Positions 42,408 through 57,202 of a stretch of DNA of 64,000 bases are shown here, piece after piece (within the stretch, counting starts at the first letter, position 1; every line of letters begins with the position of its first letter). The stretch lies in NCBI GenBank assembly GCA_014695325.1, contig JACJNZ010000014.1, positions 124,001 through 188,000 of the forward strand, given 5' to 3'. A model generated the notes under the pieces. That model was not told where the DNA came from and made no database searches. It saw nothing but the letters and a program-made list of their open reading frames with translations. This stretch comes from Cyanobacteria bacterium FACHB-502 (GTDB lineage Bacteria > Cyanobacteriota > Cyanobacteriia > Elainellales > Elainellaceae). The position numbers and the translations under genes were made by a program.

Positions 42408-45203
42408 ATGGATATCATCCTCTGTCATACCACGGCTGACTTTGACACCCTGGGCGCGGCGATCGGCTTAACGCGGCTGCATCCGGGAGCGCGAGTTGTG
42501 TTGACGGGGGGAAGTCATCCCACAGTGCATGATTTTTTGGCGTTGCATCGGGATGAATATGCGCTGATTGAGCGACGATCGGTAAATGCTGATCAGATTC
42601 GATCGCTGATTGTAGTGGATACGCAGTGGCGCGATCGGTTGGGCAAGGCGGCGGAATGGCTGGATTTGCCGGGAATTAAAGTTACGGTGTACGACCATCA
42701 TCCCGATGGAGATATTGCGGCAGACGAAATGTGTGTGGAGGCGATCGGGTCAGCCACCACGCTGATCGTGGAGCAGCTTCAGGCGGCACAAATCACGCTG
42801 ACTCCGGCAGAAGCAACCGTGATGGCGTTGGGCATTCATGTGGATACGGGGTCGCTCACGTTTGATCATTCGACTGTGCGAGATGCAGCAGCGTTGACCT
42901 GGCTGATGGCTCAGGGCGCAAACCTGCGATCGATCGGGGAATATGTAGAGCCAGGATTATCTCCAGAGCTGCAAGAGCTGTTGACGATCGCCCTGGAGCA
43001 AATGCAGACGGAAACCATTCGCGGCAATTCGATCGCCTGGGTGCTGCTGCCCGTGGGAGGTCATGTGGTGGGGCTGTCGAATCTAGCATCGCGGCTGCTG
43101 ACCCTGACCGAGGCGGATGTGCTGCTGCTGGCGACGCGCTTTAGTTTAGGAGACGGTACGGAAGAACGGTTGACGGTCATCGGACGCTCGCGAGGTGGAC
43201 TGGGATTAGACGAATTGAATCTGGGTGAGCTGTTCCAGCCCTGGGGGGGCGGTGGACATTCGCGGGCAGCATCGTTATCCCTGAGGGCGGCTGATCCGGA
43301 AAGCGAGTTTCAGCAGATTGTTGATCGCTTGACGCAGCAGATTCCCCAGCCGCCAACGGCACGAGAAATGATGTCTTCTCCGGTTCGCACGATTCGCCCA
43401 GAAACGACGATCGAGGAAGCACAGCGAATTTTGTTGCGGTACGGTCATGCGGGGCTATCAGTGGTGGATGCGGAAGGGCAGTTGGTTGGCATTATTTCTC
43501 GACGGGATATTGACATTGCACTGCATCACGGCTTCAGCCATGCTCCGGTGAAAGGCTACATGACGACGAATCTAAAGACGATCGCCCCCGATGCCTCGCT
43601 GCCGGAAATCGAATCGCTGATGACCACCTTTGATATCGGTCGATTGCCTGTGCTGGAGGACGGACAGCTTGTTGGCATGGTGACACGAACCGATGTGCTG
43701 CGCCAGCTTCATCAGGATAGGCAGTATCAGGGCAGGCAAAACCAGGCAAGGCAAACGGTACGCGATGCGAAAAAACCCTCACTGCGTCAAGCTTGCCTCC
43801 TTCCAGAAGTTGTGCAGGGAATGTTCCGAAGTCGCCTGATTCCAGCTTTGTGGAATGTGCTGATGCAGGCAGCAACACTGGCAGAGCAGCGCGGTTGGCA
43901 GCTCTATGTGGTGGGCGGTGCAGTGCGCGATATGCTGCTGTCCCAGAGCGGTGAACCCCATTTGTATGACATTGATTTAGTGGTAGATGGCTTTCATCGA
44001 TCGGCAGACCAGGCAGCAGGAGTCGAGCTAGCACGAGCATTGCAGGAAAGCTACCCGCAAACGAAGCTGCAAATCCACGGACGATTTCAGACTGCAGCCC
44101 TCCTCTGGCACAACGATCCCGAACTTGGCTCGCTCTGGGTGGACATCGCTACGGCTCGCACCGAGTTTTATCCCTATCCGGCGGCAAACCCTGAAGTCGA
44201 GGCAAGCTCAATCCGGCAGGATTTATATCGGCGCGATTTCACGATTAACGCGATGGCAATCCGGTTGACTACCCCCCGACGCGGCGAACTGCTCGACTTT
44301 TTTGGCGGTGTGATTGACCTGGAAGCAAAGCAAATCCGTGTCCTCCATGCCAATAGCTTTATCGAAGACCCAACGCGCATCTATCGCGCAGTGCGTTTTG
44401 CCACGCGACTTGGATTTCAGATCGAACCGCAAACTGAAGGTTACATTCGCCATGCGATCGCCAGCGGGGTTTATGACCGAATCCAGCTCGAAATGGAGAA
44501 AACCCCCGCACTGCAAACCCGCCTGAAGCAAGAGTTGAAATACATTCTGGAAGCTTCCTATTGGAAACGGGCGATCGCGCTTTTAGATCATCTGGGCGCA
44601 ATTTGCTGTATCCATCCTGAGCTGAAACTCACCGATTCCCTCTGGTACCAGCTCCGTTTTGCCGATCGCTGGCTGAAACAATTTGCCCCTTCCAAAACCT
44701 TTTCTCACTGGCAAATTTTGCTCGAAGTCATGCTGCTGCACCTGCTACCCGCAGCCCGAGTCAAAGTCGCAACGCATTTTCAGCTTCCTGCCGGCAGCCT
44801 CGATCGACTAGGACAGTTTGACGATCGACAAAAATGGGTAAATGAGCAATTGCCTGAATGCGATGCGAAGCACTTCCCTTCTGGGACAACCCGTCTTAGT
44901 AAGGTTTATCGGCTGCTGCAACCCTTGGATTTTGAGACGCTGACGCTGCTAGCAATCACCAGTTCTCGCGCAATTCGACGACGTATTTGGCAATACCTCA
45001 CTAAGGATTCGGCGATCGAACCTTTGCTCAACGGCAACGATCTCAAACAGCTTGGCTTCAAACCCGGACGGCAGTATAAGGAGATTTTAGAAACGGTTTT
45101 TGATGCAACGTTGGATGGAGTGGTGCGCGATCGAGCCGAGGCAGTGCGGTTTGTTGAGGAACAGTTTGAAAAGGGAGAGCGGTACAGCAAAGAGACGCAT
45201 TGA
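42408..45203 (+). CDS. DHH-CBS-CBS-tRNA nucleotidyltransferase fusion
   Basis: 931 aa from ATG 42408. Residues 1-315 are a DHH/DHHA1 phosphoesterase: LCHTTADFDTLGAA, VTVYDHHPDGDIAADE, then QPWGGGGHSRAASLSL. About 325-450 is a CBS pair (EMMSSPVRTIRPETTIEEAQ; KGYMTTNLKTIAPDASLPEI). The C-terminal half is a class II tRNA nucleotidyltransferase: LYVVGGAVRDMLLS (GG/GxVRD), DIDLVVDG (DxD), RRDFTINAMAIRL and EDPTRIYRAVRFATRLGFQI. In some lineages this fused form is the A-adding partner of a CC-adding enzyme. The N-terminal phosphoesterase may degrade nano-RNA or cyclic nucleotides. Well-known cyanobacterial architecture. Confidence 0.9.
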   Translation: MDIILCHTTADFDTLGAAIGLTRLHPGARVVLTGGSHPTVHDFLALHRDEYALIERRSVNADQIRSLIVVDTQWRDRLGKAAEWLDLPGIKVTVYDHHPDGDIAADEMCVEAIGSATTLIVEQLQAAQITLTPAEATVMALGIHVDTGSLTFDHSTVRDAAALTWLMAQGANLRSIGEYVEPGLSPELQELLTIALEQMQTETIRGNSIAWVLLPVGGHVVGLSNLASRLLTLTEADVLLLATRFSLGDGTEERLTVIGRSRGGLGLDELNLGELFQPWGGGGHSRAASLSLRAADPESEFQQIVDRLTQQIPQPPTAREMMSSPVRTIRPETTIEEAQRILLRYGHAGLSVVDAEGQLVGIISRRDIDIALHHGFSHAPVKGYMTTNLKTIAPDASLPEIESLMTTFDIGRLPVLEDGQLVGMVTRTDVLRQLHQDRQYQGRQNQARQTVRDAKKPSLRQACLLPEVVQGMFRSRLIPALWNVLMQAATLAEQRGWQLYVVGGAVRDMLLSQSGEPHLYDIDLVVDGFHRSADQAAGVELARALQESYPQTKLQIHGRFQTAALLWHNDPELGSLWVDIATARTEFYPYPAANPEVEASSIRQDLYRRDFTINAMAIRLTTPRRGELLDFFGGVIDLEAKQIRVLHANSFIEDPTRIYRAVRFATRLGFQIEPQTEGYIRHAIASGVYDRIQLEMEKTPALQTRLKQELKYILEASYWKRAIALLDHLGAICCIHPELKLTDSLWYQLRFADRWLKQFAPSKTFSHWQILLEVMLLHLLPAARVKVATHFQLPAGSLDRLGQFDDRQKWVNEQLPECDAKHFPSGTTRLSKVYRLLQPLDFETLTLLAITSSRAIRRRIWQYLTKDSAIEPLLNGNDLKQLGFKPGRQYKEILETVFDATLDGVVRDRAEAVRFVEEQFEKGERYSKETH

Positions 45204-50260: not shown

Positions 50261-51388
50261 TTAACTCGGTGCAGTTCTTTCCAGTTGGCTATTTAGCGGC
50301 TGGAACAGCTTAACAACAAAGGTTGTTCCTTCGCCCACTTCACTCTCTACATCAATTTGCCCGCCATGCAAGTCTAAGCAATGTTTTACGATGGTTAGCC
50401 CTAGCCCAGTTCCAGGAATTTTGCCCACATTGTTTGCTCGTTGAAAAGGTTCAAACAAATGCTTTTGAGCATCAGAAGGAATTCCAATTCCCATATCTCG
50501 AACTTGTAAGGTGACTTGTTCTTCATGACAGGAAAGGTCAAAATAGACGGGGCGATCTTGGGGAGAGTATTTAATTGCGTTTGAAATTAAATTCGTGAGA
50601 ATGTGCCTGAGGAGTTTTTGATCCAGACAAGCATTCTCGCAGTGCCCCTGACTGTTGAAAAGGATGCGGTGCTTTGAACCTGTGCTAAATTGGATTTCCT
50701 CGACTAGTCTTCGACAGAAGCGATCTAAATTTAAAGAGGCTGGCTTAAACTTCAAGCTTCCACCTGCGGCTTGACCAACAGATAATAAATCATCCAACAA
50801 TTGATTCATCGATCGAACCGATTGTTGAATTATGTATAAAAACTCGCGTCGTCTTTCTTCGGTTAAATTATGATTTTCCTGCTCCAGCAATTGGGCACAG
50901 CCCAGAATTGAGGTCATCGGACCTCGAAGTTCATGAGCTGCCATTGACCAAAACCGAGATTTTAGCTCACTCAACTCTTTCTCTTTTTCTAGAGCGACGC
51001 GAATCGCAGTTTCTGACAATTTCCGGCGGAGGGCAACTTCGACTGCAACATGCAAGTCCCGCTCATCAAACGGCTTCACGATATATCCAAAGGGGTCTGT
51101 CACTTTGGCTCGTTGCAATGTGGCTTCATCAGCATAAGCCGTTAAATAAATGACAGGCGTATCAAAATCGGCTCGAATTTGCTCTGCCGCTTCGATGCCA
51201 TCCATTTGACCTTTAAGTCGGACATCCATTAAAACTAACTCTGGTCGTAATTCCGCGACCTTTTCAACTGCTTCTTCTCCAGAGGCGACTGATGCAGGTA
51301 CACTGTACCCCAACTTTTTCAATCGCTTCTCGATATCACGGGCAACAACTCTTTCATCCTCAACGACTAAAATCCTTTCATTAGCCAT
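50261..51388 (-). CDS. Response regulator-histidine kinase hybrid (REC-HisKA-HATPase)
   Basis: 375 aa. The N-terminal receiver domain has ERILVVEDERVVARDIEKRL, phospho-acceptor D55 (LVLMDVRLKG) and K105 (GYIVKPFDE). A coiled link (EKEKELSELKSRF) leads to the HisKA domain with the H-box SMAAHELRGPMTSILG (H152) and the HATPase domain (NLISNAIKYSPQDRPVYF, QVRDMGIGIPSDAQKH, GTGLGLTIVKHCLD). It begins immediately after the stop of the CBS-CBCR kinase gene (TAAATG), so the two are translationally coupled and act in one phosphorelay: the upstream kinase probably phosphorylates D55. Confidence 0.93.
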   Translation of the reverse strand: MANERILVVEDERVVARDIEKRLKKLGYSVPASVASGEEAVEKVAELRPELVLMDVRLKGQMDGIEAAEQIRADFDTPVIYLTAYADEATLQRAKVTDPFGYIVKPFDERDLHVAVEVALRRKLSETAIRVALEKEKELSELKSRFWSMAAHELRGPMTSILGCAQLLEQENHNLTEERRREFLYIIQQSVRSMNQLLDDLLSVGQAAGGSLKFKPASLNLDRFCRRLVEEIQFSTGSKHRILFNSQGHCENACLDQKLLRHILTNLISNAIKYSPQDRPVYFDLSCHEEQVTLQVRDMGIGIPSDAQKHLFEPFQRANNVGKIPGTGLGLTIVKHCLDLHGGQIDVESEVGEGTTFVVKLFQPLNSQLERTAPS

Positions 51389-53599
51389 TTATTGTTCCCT
51401 TCCTATACTTTCTAATTCTGAAAATGTAATTCTAAAGGTCGTTCCTGTTCCTTCTGTTCGATCGAGTTCTATAGTGCCTTCGAGTTGTTCAGTAAAGACG
51501 CAGACAAGTTCCAAGCCGAGTGATTCTGTGTTACGGAAGTCTAGCTCTAACGGAAAGCCAATTCCATTATCCTGAACAGTTAATATGAATCGATTGTCAG
51601 AAGTGGGGGAAATTTCAATAAGGATTTCATTTTCTGAGGTTGGCGTAGGAAAAGCATGTTTTAAGGTATTGGAAACTAATTCATTGATGATTAATCCACA
51701 GGGAATGGCTGTATCAATATTGAGCCAAACGCCTGCTGCCTCAGCTCGTAGCGTTGCTGCTTGCGAATTTGCCGTATAGGACCGAAGCAGATTATTCGCC
51801 AAGTCACGAATATATTCATCAAAGTTGATTTTGAGTAAATCACTCGATTGATGCAGTTTTTCATGAATCAGCGCCATTGAACGAATTCGATTTTGGCTGT
51901 CCTTGAACAGTGCAAGTACCCTTTCGTCCCTGATGTAGTCCGATTGAAGTCTCAAGACACTTGAAATCACCTGTAGATTATTTTTGACCCGATGGTGGAT
52001 TTCTTTCAATAGGGCTTCTTTTTCCTTCAATGACAGTTTTAGCTGCTCCTCGGTTCGCTTGCGTTCTTTCAGTTCGTTCTGGACTTGCTGATACAGCTCA
52101 GATTGTTGAATCGCGATCGCCATATGAATTGCGAGTTGCTTCAATAAATCAACTTCAAACGATCGCCATTGTCTGGGGCCAGAGCAGTGATAGGCACATA
52201 ATAATCCCCACAAGTGTTCTCCTTGCAGGATCGGGACAACCAGGCTTGCTCGTATATCGTATAGGACCAGAATGTCAATATGACACTGAGTTAAACCAGC
52301 TGTATAAATATCCTCACAAACCTGAGTCCGTCCATTCTTATAAGCTTGGGCATAGTTTTGCCCAAAGCACTTATCCTGGATGCTGCTATTGAGTGCAGGC
52401 CTCCAACCGTCTTCGACTGACTCGACCACGACGGTGCCACTCCAGTCTGGATGGAACTGGTAGATAATCACTCGATCTGCTTTGAGAAATTGCCGGACTT
52501 CCTCGACACTCCGCTGCAGGATGTCATTAAGATTCAGGGACTCTCGGATGTGGAGTGCCATCGCGGCTAGAATCTGGCTGCATTGCAGCTGTTCCAGCAA
52601 GCCTACCGGATTTTCTAGCAGATGAAGAGCCAATTCTGAACCCTGTTCTTGAGCCAATTCACCGCTTGATGCCTCAAACTGCTCGATCGATCGCTGCAGT
52701 TGTTCCGCAGCGTCATACATCTCATTAAGAGCCAGAACCTCTAGAAAACTTGTGGGTGAGACAACGCCTAAAAGTTCTCCCTGGGGTCCGTATACCCCAA
52801 ACCGCTGCACTTTTGCTTGCTGCATCTTCCAGTAAGCAACTAATATCGACTCTGAGGATGGGAAGTGCAGGAATGGGCTGCTCATCACTGTCTGAGCTTG
52901 TATCTGCGATAAATCTAGCCCTAATGTCCAAAGCTGAAGCACATGCCGCTCTAAAAGTAATCCCACAGGGTGGGAATTATCCTGCGTATCATCTGCTGCT
53001 GTCAGCACGACACAATCCGCTTCACGATCAAGCATTAATTGAGCTAACTGGAGAACTGATGTAGCTGCAGGTGCTTGAACGATCGGCAGAGAAACAATTT
53101 CTGCTAACTGCTTTAATTTCAGTAGTTCATCTAGTTGTAAGACACAGCGGAGACTCGCCGGGGTGATGATACCGAGCCACTGCTCCTGCTCATCCACAAC
53201 AGGAAGATGATAAATCTGATGCTGACGGAGCTGAGCGAGGGCAGTAAAAACGTTTTGATCTTCAGTTTGGGTCAAGGCGATGACTGGTTGACGCACAACG
53301 TCAGCAACTTTCACTGCCGTTAAATCTCGCCCTGAAACAATCGCCTGTAGGGCGTCTCTCTCTCCGAATACCCCCAGGAGCCGTACCCCTTCTACAATCA
53401 GAATGCCACTTGCTCGCGCTTCGCTCATCAGTACGGTATTGAGCGAGAGTTCTAAACCCGGAAGAACACAGCTGCTCTGCGCTTTGCTCATCATCCTAAT
53501 CGCGCTGCCCAGGGACGCATCAGGAGCTATGGTCAACGGGCGTCGATCAATTGCAGAATCTAAAGATAAGGAAGGGGCTGATGAATTTTGCGGATGCAT
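51389..53599 (-). CDS. CBS-CBS-cyanobacteriochrome histidine kinase
   Basis: 736 aa. Four CBS motifs form two pairs at about 10-155 and 165-290 (PLTIAPDASLGSAIRMMSKA; HQIYHLPVVDEQEQWLGIIT; PVGLLLERHV; QRFGVYGPQGELLGVVSPTS). GAF domain at about 350-500 has D409-K-C411-F, the DXCF motif, and C439-H440 in YTAGLTQCHIDILVLYDIRA, 28 residues later, which is the known spacing of the two bilin-binding cysteines in DXCF cyanobacteriochromes. A HisKA_2 kinase follows (LLKEIHHRVKNNLQVISSVL) with HATPase (NELVSNTLKHAF, DNGIGFPLEL). So CBS (adenylate sensing) and light input may converge on one kinase. Bilin attachment is inferred, not shown. Confidence 0.93.
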   Translation of the reverse strand: MHPQNSSAPSLSLDSAIDRRPLTIAPDASLGSAIRMMSKAQSSCVLPGLELSLNTVLMSEARASGILIVEGVRLLGVFGERDALQAIVSGRDLTAVKVADVVRQPVIALTQTEDQNVFTALAQLRQHQIYHLPVVDEQEQWLGIITPASLRCVLQLDELLKLKQLAEIVSLPIVQAPAATSVLQLAQLMLDREADCVVLTAADDTQDNSHPVGLLLERHVLQLWTLGLDLSQIQAQTVMSSPFLHFPSSESILVAYWKMQQAKVQRFGVYGPQGELLGVVSPTSFLEVLALNEMYDAAEQLQRSIEQFEASSGELAQEQGSELALHLLENPVGLLEQLQCSQILAAMALHIRESLNLNDILQRSVEEVRQFLKADRVIIYQFHPDWSGTVVVESVEDGWRPALNSSIQDKCFGQNYAQAYKNGRTQVCEDIYTAGLTQCHIDILVLYDIRASLVVPILQGEHLWGLLCAYHCSGPRQWRSFEVDLLKQLAIHMAIAIQQSELYQQVQNELKERKRTEEQLKLSLKEKEALLKEIHHRVKNNLQVISSVLRLQSDYIRDERVLALFKDSQNRIRSMALIHEKLHQSSDLLKINFDEYIRDLANNLLRSYTANSQAATLRAEAAGVWLNIDTAIPCGLIINELVSNTLKHAFPTPTSENEILIEISPTSDNRFILTVQDNGIGFPLELDFRNTESLGLELVCVFTEQLEGTIELDRTEGTGTTFRITFSELESIGREQ

Positions 53600-54595: not shown

Positions 54596-55339
54596 TTAGT
54601 TCCAGCGATCGATCACTTCCAGCATCTTTTCCTTAGACAGTGTTCCTTTTTCCAGGACACCCAGCACGTCGTTGAACTGCTTAAACTGAGCGTTTGGATG
54701 ACGCTTGCGATGTTCCTGGAGTTTTTCAATAATCTTAAGTGCCTTTTTCTGGCTTAAAAACTCCAGCTTTTTAAGTACTTGCTGCTGTACTGCCGGTTCC
54801 GAGATTCTATTGAATGCCTCCAGCGGCGGTAAAGGCTGCGGCAACTTGCTGTCGATCGTTTCTGTTAAATCTAGCTTTAACCGTTCGATCGAACTGCTGA
54901 GATGCTTAAAGCTTTGCTCAAGCCTAGATTCTAAATTCTTCAGCTTAAGCGATAAAGTCCCTTCATCAGAGAGGGCTGGATTTGAAGGGGATGGAGGGCC
55001 TGGCAGTGGAGGTTGACGAACGGCTTCAGTTACCTCTAATTGTTTAAGCATTGCGCCCTCAATTTTGGGCTTCAAAATGAATACCGTAATGCGATCGGGT
55101 AATTCGGGATCGATTTCTCTTGCTTTGAGGAAAGCATAGTACTCTAAATGTCCTGACACCAGTTCGTATTCATCAATTCTTAGCGCTCGGACGAGAGGAA
55201 TATCAATCAGCCCTCTTAGCTCAACGATGGTATGAGCTAAGGCTTCAATCTCTGTTGCTTTGTCGTCCAGATTAAACGGTAAAGATGCAGAATTAACCTG
55301 AATACTATCCAGATCAACAATTGATGTGAGTAGACTCAT
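54596..55339 (-). CDS. ParB-like nuclease-domain protein
   Basis: About 247 aa from ATG 55339 (an upstream TTG at 55411 would overlap the ParA stop). The N-terminal part LDSIQVNSASLPFNLDD and DEYELVSGHLEYYAFLKARE fits the ParB/Srx fold with the box-like SGHLEY segment, followed by a Pro-rich linker and a C-terminal helical part (VQQQVLKKLEFLSQKKALKI; VLGVLEKGTLSKEKMLEVI). There is no recognisable central helix-turn-helix of a chromosomal ParB, so it is a divergent, plasmid-type partner. It follows the ParA-like gene at 61 bp on the same strand. Confidence 0.7.
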   Translation of the reverse strand: MSLLTSIVDLDSIQVNSASLPFNLDDKATEIEALAHTIVELRGLIDIPLVRALRIDEYELVSGHLEYYAFLKAREIDPELPDRITVFILKPKIEGAMLKQLEVTEAVRQPPLPGPPSPSNPALSDEGTLSLKLKNLESRLEQSFKHLSSSIERLKLDLTETIDSKLPQPLPPLEAFNRISEPAVQQQVLKKLEFLSQKKALKIIEKLQEHRKRHPNAQFKQFNDVLGVLEKGTLSKEKMLEVIDRWN

Positions 55340-55400
55340 TGGAGCTTGCTGCCAAAATTTTCTCAATTTATTATGTCTGGAATCTGCGGAGCAGTGACAA

Positions 55401-56771
55401 TCAAGCGTCAATCAACGCGAGAACTTCTTGCGCCAATTGGCTAAATTCTTCAGCAGATTGGGAATCTGGTTTGTGATCCAGAATTGAACGCGGATCAGGA
55501 ATATCAAGCTGACCCATTTCAATGGTTCGCTCAATTGCTGATGAGACATCTCGACGTTCAAAAATGCGCGATTTCAGCAGCGGAAAGCCGTATTGGTTCT
55601 GCACGATCGCTTCCATTTTGGGCAGCGTGTAGTCTACAAATCGGGCATAGGTCGCTAGCTTGGTTGGCAAAACCCCCAGCACTTTAATTGTATCTCTGCC
55701 CATTTCTTCCTTAAAATCGTTGATTTCTGCAACAAATTTCTGCACGTTCCTTAAGCCTTCGTTTGCAAAGGGCTTTAGATCCGACGGGATAAGCAAATAG
55801 TCTGCTGCAATTAAAGCAATCCGCGCATAAATATTGAGTGAGGGAGGTGTATCAATCAAGACAATATCATAGCGGTCTTTCACATCCTGAAGCTTTTTCA
55901 CCAGTCTTGTGCGAGCGTGTTCAGTTTGAACAAATTCCTGTTCACACTCCATCAGCCGAATGTGGCTGGGAATGACATCAAATTCAGGCGATGAAAAACT
56001 AGACTGCCGTGCAACTTCAGAAATAGAGAATTTGTTTTTCTCAATAATCACGTGATACACGTATGAATTCTTGATTGTGTCTGTCAGTTCATCCTGAAAC
56101 TTAACTAATCCTGTAGCAAATGTCGTATTTGCCTAACTATCCAAATCGATCACGAGGACTCGCTTGTTCTGCTTGCTGAGAGCGGCAACCAGGTTAATCA
56201 CAGTCGTTGTTTTGCCTACTCCACCTTTATTGTGATAAACCGCGATAACTTTCATGTTTGGCTCCTGCTTTGATGAAGTTTGATTTATTTGCTGCTCTGG
56301 ATCTGCTGGGTGCAGTTGCGGCGATATCTCTTGAATCAATGCTTCCTGCTGTAGTGTTTCTCGACCAATAATTTGTTTGATGGTTCCAATCTTCTGAGGA
56401 ACCTCGTGCCCTGGAACTTGCAGCAGTAGGTTTAGCTCTCCATTGCTCTGCTCATAGATTCTGACCAGATGACCGTTCGTTAACAGTCCATAGCGAACAT
56501 CTAAACTTGTTAGATAGCGGCGAAACTTTCTGACATGGCGATCGAGGTTTTGGCGAGGATGCTTCGCCTCTAAAATTAATTGGAGCTGATTTTGATAGCC
56601 TAATAAGTTTGCTGCAACCGCTAAAAAATCAAGGCGAATTCTGCCAAAAGTGACCTCCTGCTGCCAACATTGTGGTGAATAGCCCAACATCGGCAGTAGA
56701 TAGAGAACAATAAACTTACTCTCTACCTCCGATTCATTACGACATTGCCCTGGATCAAAGAACGTGGACAC
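55401..56771 (-). pseudogene. Nuclease-domain/ParA fusion interrupted by one in-frame amber codon
   Basis: Start GTG 56771. Residues 1-115 resemble type I restriction HsdR N-terminal domains: [20 protein letters not shown] then QLILEAK (D48, E68-x-K70) and [14 protein letters not shown]. From residue 173 a ParA ATPase starts: [20 protein letters not shown]. At 56135-56133 TAG replaces the Gln codon of the conserved DLDPQ(G/A)N motif (here DLDS-stop-ANTTFATGLV). Downstream the same frame continues as a normal ParA C-terminal half: YDIVLIDTPPSLNIYARIAL and FERRDVSSAIERTIEMG, to a stop at 55401. A C-to-T change alone explains it. The protein is either truncated, read through, or a sequencing error; without it the length would be 456 codons. 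Confidence 0.85.
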
Positions 56772-57202
56772 GCGATTTATGGCATGAGGGTGACAATACG
56801 AATCTCTTCTAAAATACCCATCCCAGTCTGGCTACTGCCGGAAAGAGCTAGATCTTTGACAAAGCATTACCCCCATAGCAAGGTTGCGTGAAATGAAATG
56901 CGTCAAGCCTGGTTTAGAGCCGCAGCGATGTCCTGATGCCGAAGCACATCTGCGAATTTTGCAGCACCTTAGCCCCACTGCCACCTATCGCATTCTGTTT
57001 GATGTGCCGAAACATCATCTACAGGATGTCAGGCAAGAGAGCGATCGAACAATTTGTAAAGCGATCGAATAATTTACCTCAGTCAAACTATAATCGCTGA
57101 AGGGGAGTCGATCGGTGAGTTTCCTCAATCTGAAGATATTGTTGAGCAGACGAAAGCGATCGAGTGGTGTTGATCGAAAACAAATTTCCCAACAGAACAA
57201 TC

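Follow-up and report, generated by a model that had tools for sequence, protein, structure and literature searches.

A gene on the minus strand of the 64,000-nucleotide stretch of DNA analysed here (the window) encodes a histidine kinase in which four CBS units, a GAF domain with the two cysteines of a DXCF cyanobacteriochrome, a HisKA_2 domain and a HATPase_c domain follow one another in a single polypeptide. The reading that we favour, and consider rather probable, is that of a light-gated kinase of the blue/green type that drives a second, Rec-gated kinase encoded by the adjoining gene, with the CBS module acting mainly as a scaffold or as a weak modulator. The same combination of a four-CBS module and a D-x-C GAF domain is common in cyanobacteria, and the small branch to which this kinase belongs is set apart from the wider family by the erosion of its CBS sites next to a conserved light-sensing domain.

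Domain organization and fold of the kinase

The open reading frame extends from position 53599 to 51389 (feature 51389..53599, minus strand, like all other features of this gene), starts with ATG and encodes 736 aa. Pfam places the GAF domain at residues 356-497, HisKA_2 at 533-608 (E 9e-30; 51776..52003) and HATPase_c at 636-727 (E 8.6e-13; 51419..51694). The catalytic motifs of a HisKA_2 kinase are all present, with HHRVKNN at residue 535 in HisKA_2 and the N-box-like NELVSN at 639, DNGIGF at 677 and SLGLELV at 693 in HATPase_c. CBS stretches are fainter at the sequence level: Pfam detects two at E ≤0.1 in the whole protein and three at E ≤1 when residues 14-209 are searched alone. An AlphaFold2 model of the kinase, computed from a 57-row alignment (mean pLDDT 82.6, pTM 0.45), contains four CBS units at about residues 13-290 (52730..53563), and it is this structural evidence, more than Pfam by itself, that supports two CBS pairs. 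How the domains are placed relative to one another in this whole-kinase model is unreliable, given its pTM.

In VIA-align comparisons, residues 9-301 of the model match proteins with four CBS units in one AMPK-gamma-like fold, including 3ddj, solved with AMP (Z 24.6, 260 residues, rmsd 2.9), MJ1225 (3kh5, Z 23.4) and AMPK gamma (5ezv_E, Z 21.9). Over this part of the kinase the four-CBS fold is thus shared with AMPK gamma, MJ1225 and SSO3205, although sequence identity to them is only 12-16% and the Asp expected to contact ribose is present in one of the four units. About residues 330-506 match cyanobacteriochromes, the best being 3w2z (Z 26.2), followed by PPHK (6oap, Z 25.8) and TePixJ (4glq, Z 24.7). 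Foldseek returned the same kinds of structure. Pfam, the PDB matches and the structural alignment delimit the cyanobacteriochrome GAF domain with its flanking helices to residues 331-505 (52085..52609), and in the model a continuous helix, residues 480-553 (51941..52162), leads from the GAF domain into the kinase helix. CBS is among the sensor domains described as preceding signalling helices (PMC1592074). The initial annotation had read two CBS pairs, a GAF domain and a HisKA_2 kinase in this one frame, and Pfam, the model and the four-CBS fold matches all bear this out. Another protein of the window, in an open frame of 942 aa, also contains two CBS stretches (43359-43709, plus strand).

Four close relatives of the kinase, with 78-81% identity in their best segment and one of them truncated at a contig end, came from a scan of named genomes, and 98 genomes searched for orthologues contained 10 of full length in addition to this kinase. 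Across 388 genomes of the class, the complete compact layout occurs in at least 18 (this one included), spread over six family codes; this is a hand count with three candidates scored per genome, and is to be read as a lower bound. One further member (L006) is truncated where its contig ends. In a careful tree of GAF domains, the 18 rows of this branch (17 complete ones plus the cut L006) stand alone on one side with a support of 100/100, in a tree of 107 rows that leaves out the motif columns and whose bootstrap had not settled. The input for the trees, which excluded rows missing the canonical cysteine (38 of 228) and other sets, comprised 137 rows, or 132 after a similarity cut, and a further 25, either long or repeated, were removed before the careful tree was built.

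Bilin site and photoreceptor class

The GAF domain carries the DXCF motif D409-K410-C411-F412 (52364..52375) and, with a spacing of 28 residues between C411 and C439, the canonical bilin cysteine C439 followed by H440 (52280..52285), at exactly the residue numbers given in the initial annotation. D409, C411, F412, C439 and H440 are identical in 18 of 18 branch members (this kinase and 17 others). Position 427 is a Val, and the neighbouring C428 is kept in just 8 of the 18. Structural alignment of model residues 353-501 with residues 436-584 of the TePixJ chain 4glq (149/149 residues aligned, rmsd 2.0, 40% identity) superimposes C411 on position 494 and C439 on position 522, which we take to be the bilin cysteines of TePixJ, and a sequence alignment with TePixJ 3vv4 pairs the same two cysteines. 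The DXCF arrangement recognized at first sight in the sequence therefore holds in the structural comparison, and the two cysteines do not lie away from the bilin pocket. Both hallmarks of a DXCF cyanobacteriochrome, the canonical cysteine and a second one within Asp-Xaa-Cys-Phe, are present. The likeness to TePixJ (4glq, 4fof, 3vv4) covers the fold and the matching positions of both cysteines, whereas its output, according to its database name, is that of a methyl-accepting chemotaxis protein and its GAF domain shares 40% identity with that of this kinase. As for the supply of chromophore, the genome encodes one heme oxygenase and one Fe_bilin_red protein, a phycocyanobilin:ferredoxin oxidoreductase (342 bits, cut-off 206). 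The photoreceptor reading of this kinase is well supported by the position and conservation of its cysteines, and bilin binding is predicted. In DXCF domains generally, the default is a dark state that absorbs blue light and a product that absorbs green light (PMC11284453), and the blue/green type is adopted as such here, the exact colours of this GAF domain not being readable from its sequence.

We consider it improbable that the GAF domain belongs to another colour class, a red/green one like that of NpR3784, whose photocycle would make no use of C411. Such an assignment would agree with the sequence comparison to solved structures, where the nearest GAF domain is that of PPHK (6oap, E 5.7e-54; TePixJ 3vv4 follows with E 1.9e-36) and where the best matches, PPHK and miRFP670nano, have a Tyr in place of the DXCF cysteine. 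A tree in which the kinase clade is joined to the Tyr-motif (NpR3784-type) rows is not rejected (p-AU 0.211), and in a quick tree two Tyr-motif rows (L169 and L173) fall with the kinase clade in one weakly supported set of 51 rows. Against it stand the invariance of D-x-C-F in 18/18 branch members and the position, in the same quick tree, of two NpR3784-type reference chains in a separate set of 8 rows with a support of 84. The NpR3784 lineage is moreover described as being without the second cysteine of DXCF domains (PMC11284453), which this kinase possesses as C411. An XRG (red/green) GAF domain that had regained a cysteine was also considered and rejected: the WXDXXL motif by which XRG cyanobacteriochromes are defined (PMC11284453) is missing from the corresponding segment (I407-Q-D409-K-C-F412), and in the tree the XRG rows, of which there are two, group together and apart from the kinase clade. 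PPHK itself is a dual-sensor histidine kinase, described as combining a cyanobacteriochrome GAF domain with a second sensor. This second input is presumably a REC domain, and PPHK differs from our kinase by the Tyr at the position of the DXCF cysteine.

The CBS module in the branch and in the wider family

The domain order was initially thought unusual among photoreceptors, a view that we had to abandon, since four CBS units followed by a D-x-C GAF domain are common in cyanobacteria. A near-full match to a CBS4-GAF profile (from position ≤12 to position ≥500 of 518) occurs in at least 89 of 388 genomes, by a hand count in which the cysteines were checked in part of these genomes. We assembled 82 distinct CBS4-GAF proteins from 102 frames passing the profile, in the loci returned and 52 hand-picked regions. 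D-x-C together with the canonical cysteine is found in 65 of these 82, a proportion biased upward by a profile whose source proteins were mostly of the D-x-C kind; the next residue is Phe in 55 and another one in 10. The outputs of CBS4-GAF proteins include HisKA, HisKA_2 and GGDEF motifs. Five of them (L061, L110, L120, L122 and L127) have D-x-C-I instead of D-x-C-F and form their own group (98) in a quick tree. Open-access papers, to which our literature search extended while most subscription journals lay outside it, yielded no description of a CBS4-DXCF family. A multi-sensor kinase of Arthrospira with CBS is reported to be phosphorylated in its CBS domain, and the accessible part of that report mentions no bilin role (PMC7291507).

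A protein resembling Tlr0924 (SesA), the blue/green cyanobacteriochrome of Thermosynechococcus, was found at three loci (L087, L090 and L092). The protein of L092 contains four CBS stretches (E ≤1), a PAS domain, a DXCF GAF domain and GGDEF, so that, as in our kinase, the DXCF GAF domain stands behind four CBS stretches; it differs by the PAS domain inserted between CBS and GAF and by its GGDEF output. Its first 60 codons include a single Met; with numbering from there, its DXCF cysteine is residue 499, and the next cysteine lies 28 residues further on. For Tlr0924, a blue/green photocycle and a DXCF cysteine, Cys-499, have been described (PMC4067208). This agreement in residue numbering, from which we infer the kinship of the two proteins, makes it very probable that Tlr0924, a well-studied receptor, already pairs CBS with a DXCF GAF domain. 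L064 and L065 were rejected as candidates for Tlr0924, both cysteines being missing. These two CBS4-GAF proteins (L064 in genome G046, L065 in G065), devoid of bilin cysteines, keep the Asp residues of CBS1 and CBS3 discussed below, as would suit a CBS role without bilin; L065 carries GGDEF, and L064 is interrupted by a TAG codon.

In CBS domains an Asp is expected to hold the ribose of the nucleotide, a rule for which we found no source in the open-access literature. In this kinase the alignment shows it in one CBS unit of four, as D82 of CBS1 (53354..53356), and the corresponding position of CBS3 (52943..52945), occupied by Asp in 45 of the 46 other CBS4-DXC proteins, is His219 here. The two groups differ markedly in this respect: both the CBS1 and the CBS3 Asp are kept in 3/18 branch members versus 43/46 of the other CBS4-DXC proteins, among which the CBS1 Asp is present in 44. 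Within the branch, the CBS1 Asp is retained in 12 of the 18 members (this kinase included), the CBS3 position is His in 12 of 18 (again including this kinase), and four have neither Asp. Among CBS4-GAF proteins lacking one or both cysteines, the CBS1 Asp is conserved in 16/17 and the CBS3 Asp in 17/17; in the wider family, the CBS sites thus persist where bilin sites have gone.

The pattern of conservation is likewise inverted. The GAF domain is more conserved than the CBS part in all 153 pairs of branch members (mean identity 0.80 versus 0.57), whereas CBS identity exceeds GAF identity in 812 of the 1035 pairs formed by the other 46 CBS4-DXC proteins. The contrast persists at matched overall identity, with CBS exceeding GAF in 0/68 branch pairs versus 25/38 other pairs between 0.60 and 0.75 and in 0/30 versus 10/16 between 0.75 and 0.95, the pairs in all these counts being not independent of one another. 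Along the protein, mean identity in the branch is highest in the HisKA_2 region (0.81) and the GAF domain (0.80) and lowest in the linker (0.36) and CBS3 (0.49); CBS is the least conserved of the folded parts (0.57 versus 0.70-0.81), and 5 of 60 CBS3 columns are invariant. Most of the ligand role of the CBS module is probably lost in this kinase, one expected nucleotide site (CBS1, with D82) may still work, and energy sensing seems more plausible for the wider CBS4-DXCF family than for this kinase.

These observations weaken the initial proposal that the CBS pairs bring adenine-nucleotide sensing to the kinase: the AMPK-gamma-like fold and D82 speak for it, against the loss of the expected Asp from three units of four and the His219 of CBS3. 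A full two-input integrator, in which CBS would bind ATP, ADP or AMP and light would act on the same kinase to combine energy and colour, appears unlikely, if still a serious contender. It draws on the resemblance of the module to the AMP-binding SSO3205 and to AMPK gamma, on the persistence of D82 in two thirds of the branch, on the presence of both Asp residues in nearly all of the other CBS4-DXC proteins and on the same CBS and DXCF pairing in the Tlr0924-like protein; the change from Asp to His in CBS3, the rarity of members with both Asp residues and the low conservation of CBS relative to every other folded part of the branch all weigh against it. CBS domains in general bind varied ligands, and the changed residues might mark a new specificity, for c-di-AMP, S-adenosyl compounds or another metabolite, rather than a loss. 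That His219 is itself common in the branch speaks for this explanation, the small number of invariant CBS3 columns against it, and we regard it as very unlikely. We thus retain as the preferred reading a CBS module that would serve mainly as a dimer scaffold or as a weak, one-site modulator, because the expected binding residues are eroded in the branch.

The adjoining Rec kinase and the proposed cascade

The gene that follows (50261..51388, minus strand) starts on the base directly after the stop codon of the light-sensor kinase. Pfam and motif searches identify its product, of 375 aa, as a kinase with REC, HisKA and HATPase_c domains in this order, with Asp55 in REC and His152 in HisKA, that is, with the domain order, phospho-Asp and His of a Rec-controlled kinase. 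It lies directly downstream and on the same strand in 17/17 orthologous regions fetched (8 to 9.5 kb; 58-85% identity), a set that excludes the cut contig L006. Antisense frames of both genes aside, no other neighbour family is common to at least four of these 17 regions, and none of eight other nearby genes of the window recurs in them. Orthologues of the Rec kinase (≥68% identity) occur in 11 of 98 genomes, the same 11 that carry the light-sensor kinase. Among the first 20 weaker matches to the Rec kinase, 15 have a match to the kinase part no more than about 500 bases away (hand count), the other five not being judgeable from the matches listed; the pairing of a HisKA_2 kinase with such a Rec kinase recurs with other sensors.

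Elsewhere in the window, a frame at 55401-56831 (minus strand) encodes a ParA-type ATPase preceded by a weak HSDR_N-like part; a TAG codon in phase (56133-56135) cuts it shortly past Walker A and reflects either a broken gene or a sequencing error. This frame is adjoined by an open reading frame of 271 aa (54596-55411, minus strand) with no Pfam match at E ≤0.1.

The closest worked-out parallel that we found for the kinase pair is the LvrA to LvrB cascade of Leptospira. LvrB is described as a Rec-controlled kinase of solved structure that is activated by an upstream kinase, and its REC-DHp-CA order is that of the downstream gene here (PMC13269768). The present pair differs in that the upstream kinase is of the HisKA_2 type with a light sensor, and its phosphotransfer is predicted.

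By the mechanism that we favour, the GAF domain would bind phycocyanobilin through C439, the chromophore being partly or fully isomerised to phycoviolobilin. In one state C411 would form an adduct at C10 of this chromophore, which would yield a dark state absorbing in the blue and a photoproduct of the green type, possibly teal or orange. The light-driven change would then reach the HisKA_2 kinase through the continuous helix 480-553, and this kinase would phosphorylate Asp55 in the REC domain of its neighbour, the product of the adjoining gene. The phosphorylated REC domain would gate this second kinase. The four-CBS module would be an AMPK-gamma-like fold inherited from the wider family, where it is probably a nucleotide sensor.

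On a broader scale, we tentatively suggest, as a possibility that falls somewhat short of probable, that CBS4-DXCF proteins form a large and little-described family of sensors for light plus energy, within which this branch would have dropped nucleotide sensing to become a colour-gated kinase with a fixed kinase-to-Rec-kinase cascade, so that one scaffold would exist in two-input and one-input forms. If the family binds adenine nucleotides, it would provide cyanobacteria with a direct molecular link between the colour of light and the energy state of the cell, and Tlr0924/SesA, whose photocycle has already been studied, would be a ready test case for this link. The individual parts of the kinase are known, but within a large CBS4-DXCF family they present a contrast that is clear and open to test. 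The branch provides a natural comparison, with the layout unchanged, the CBS sites eroded, the light sensor conserved and the downstream partner fixed.
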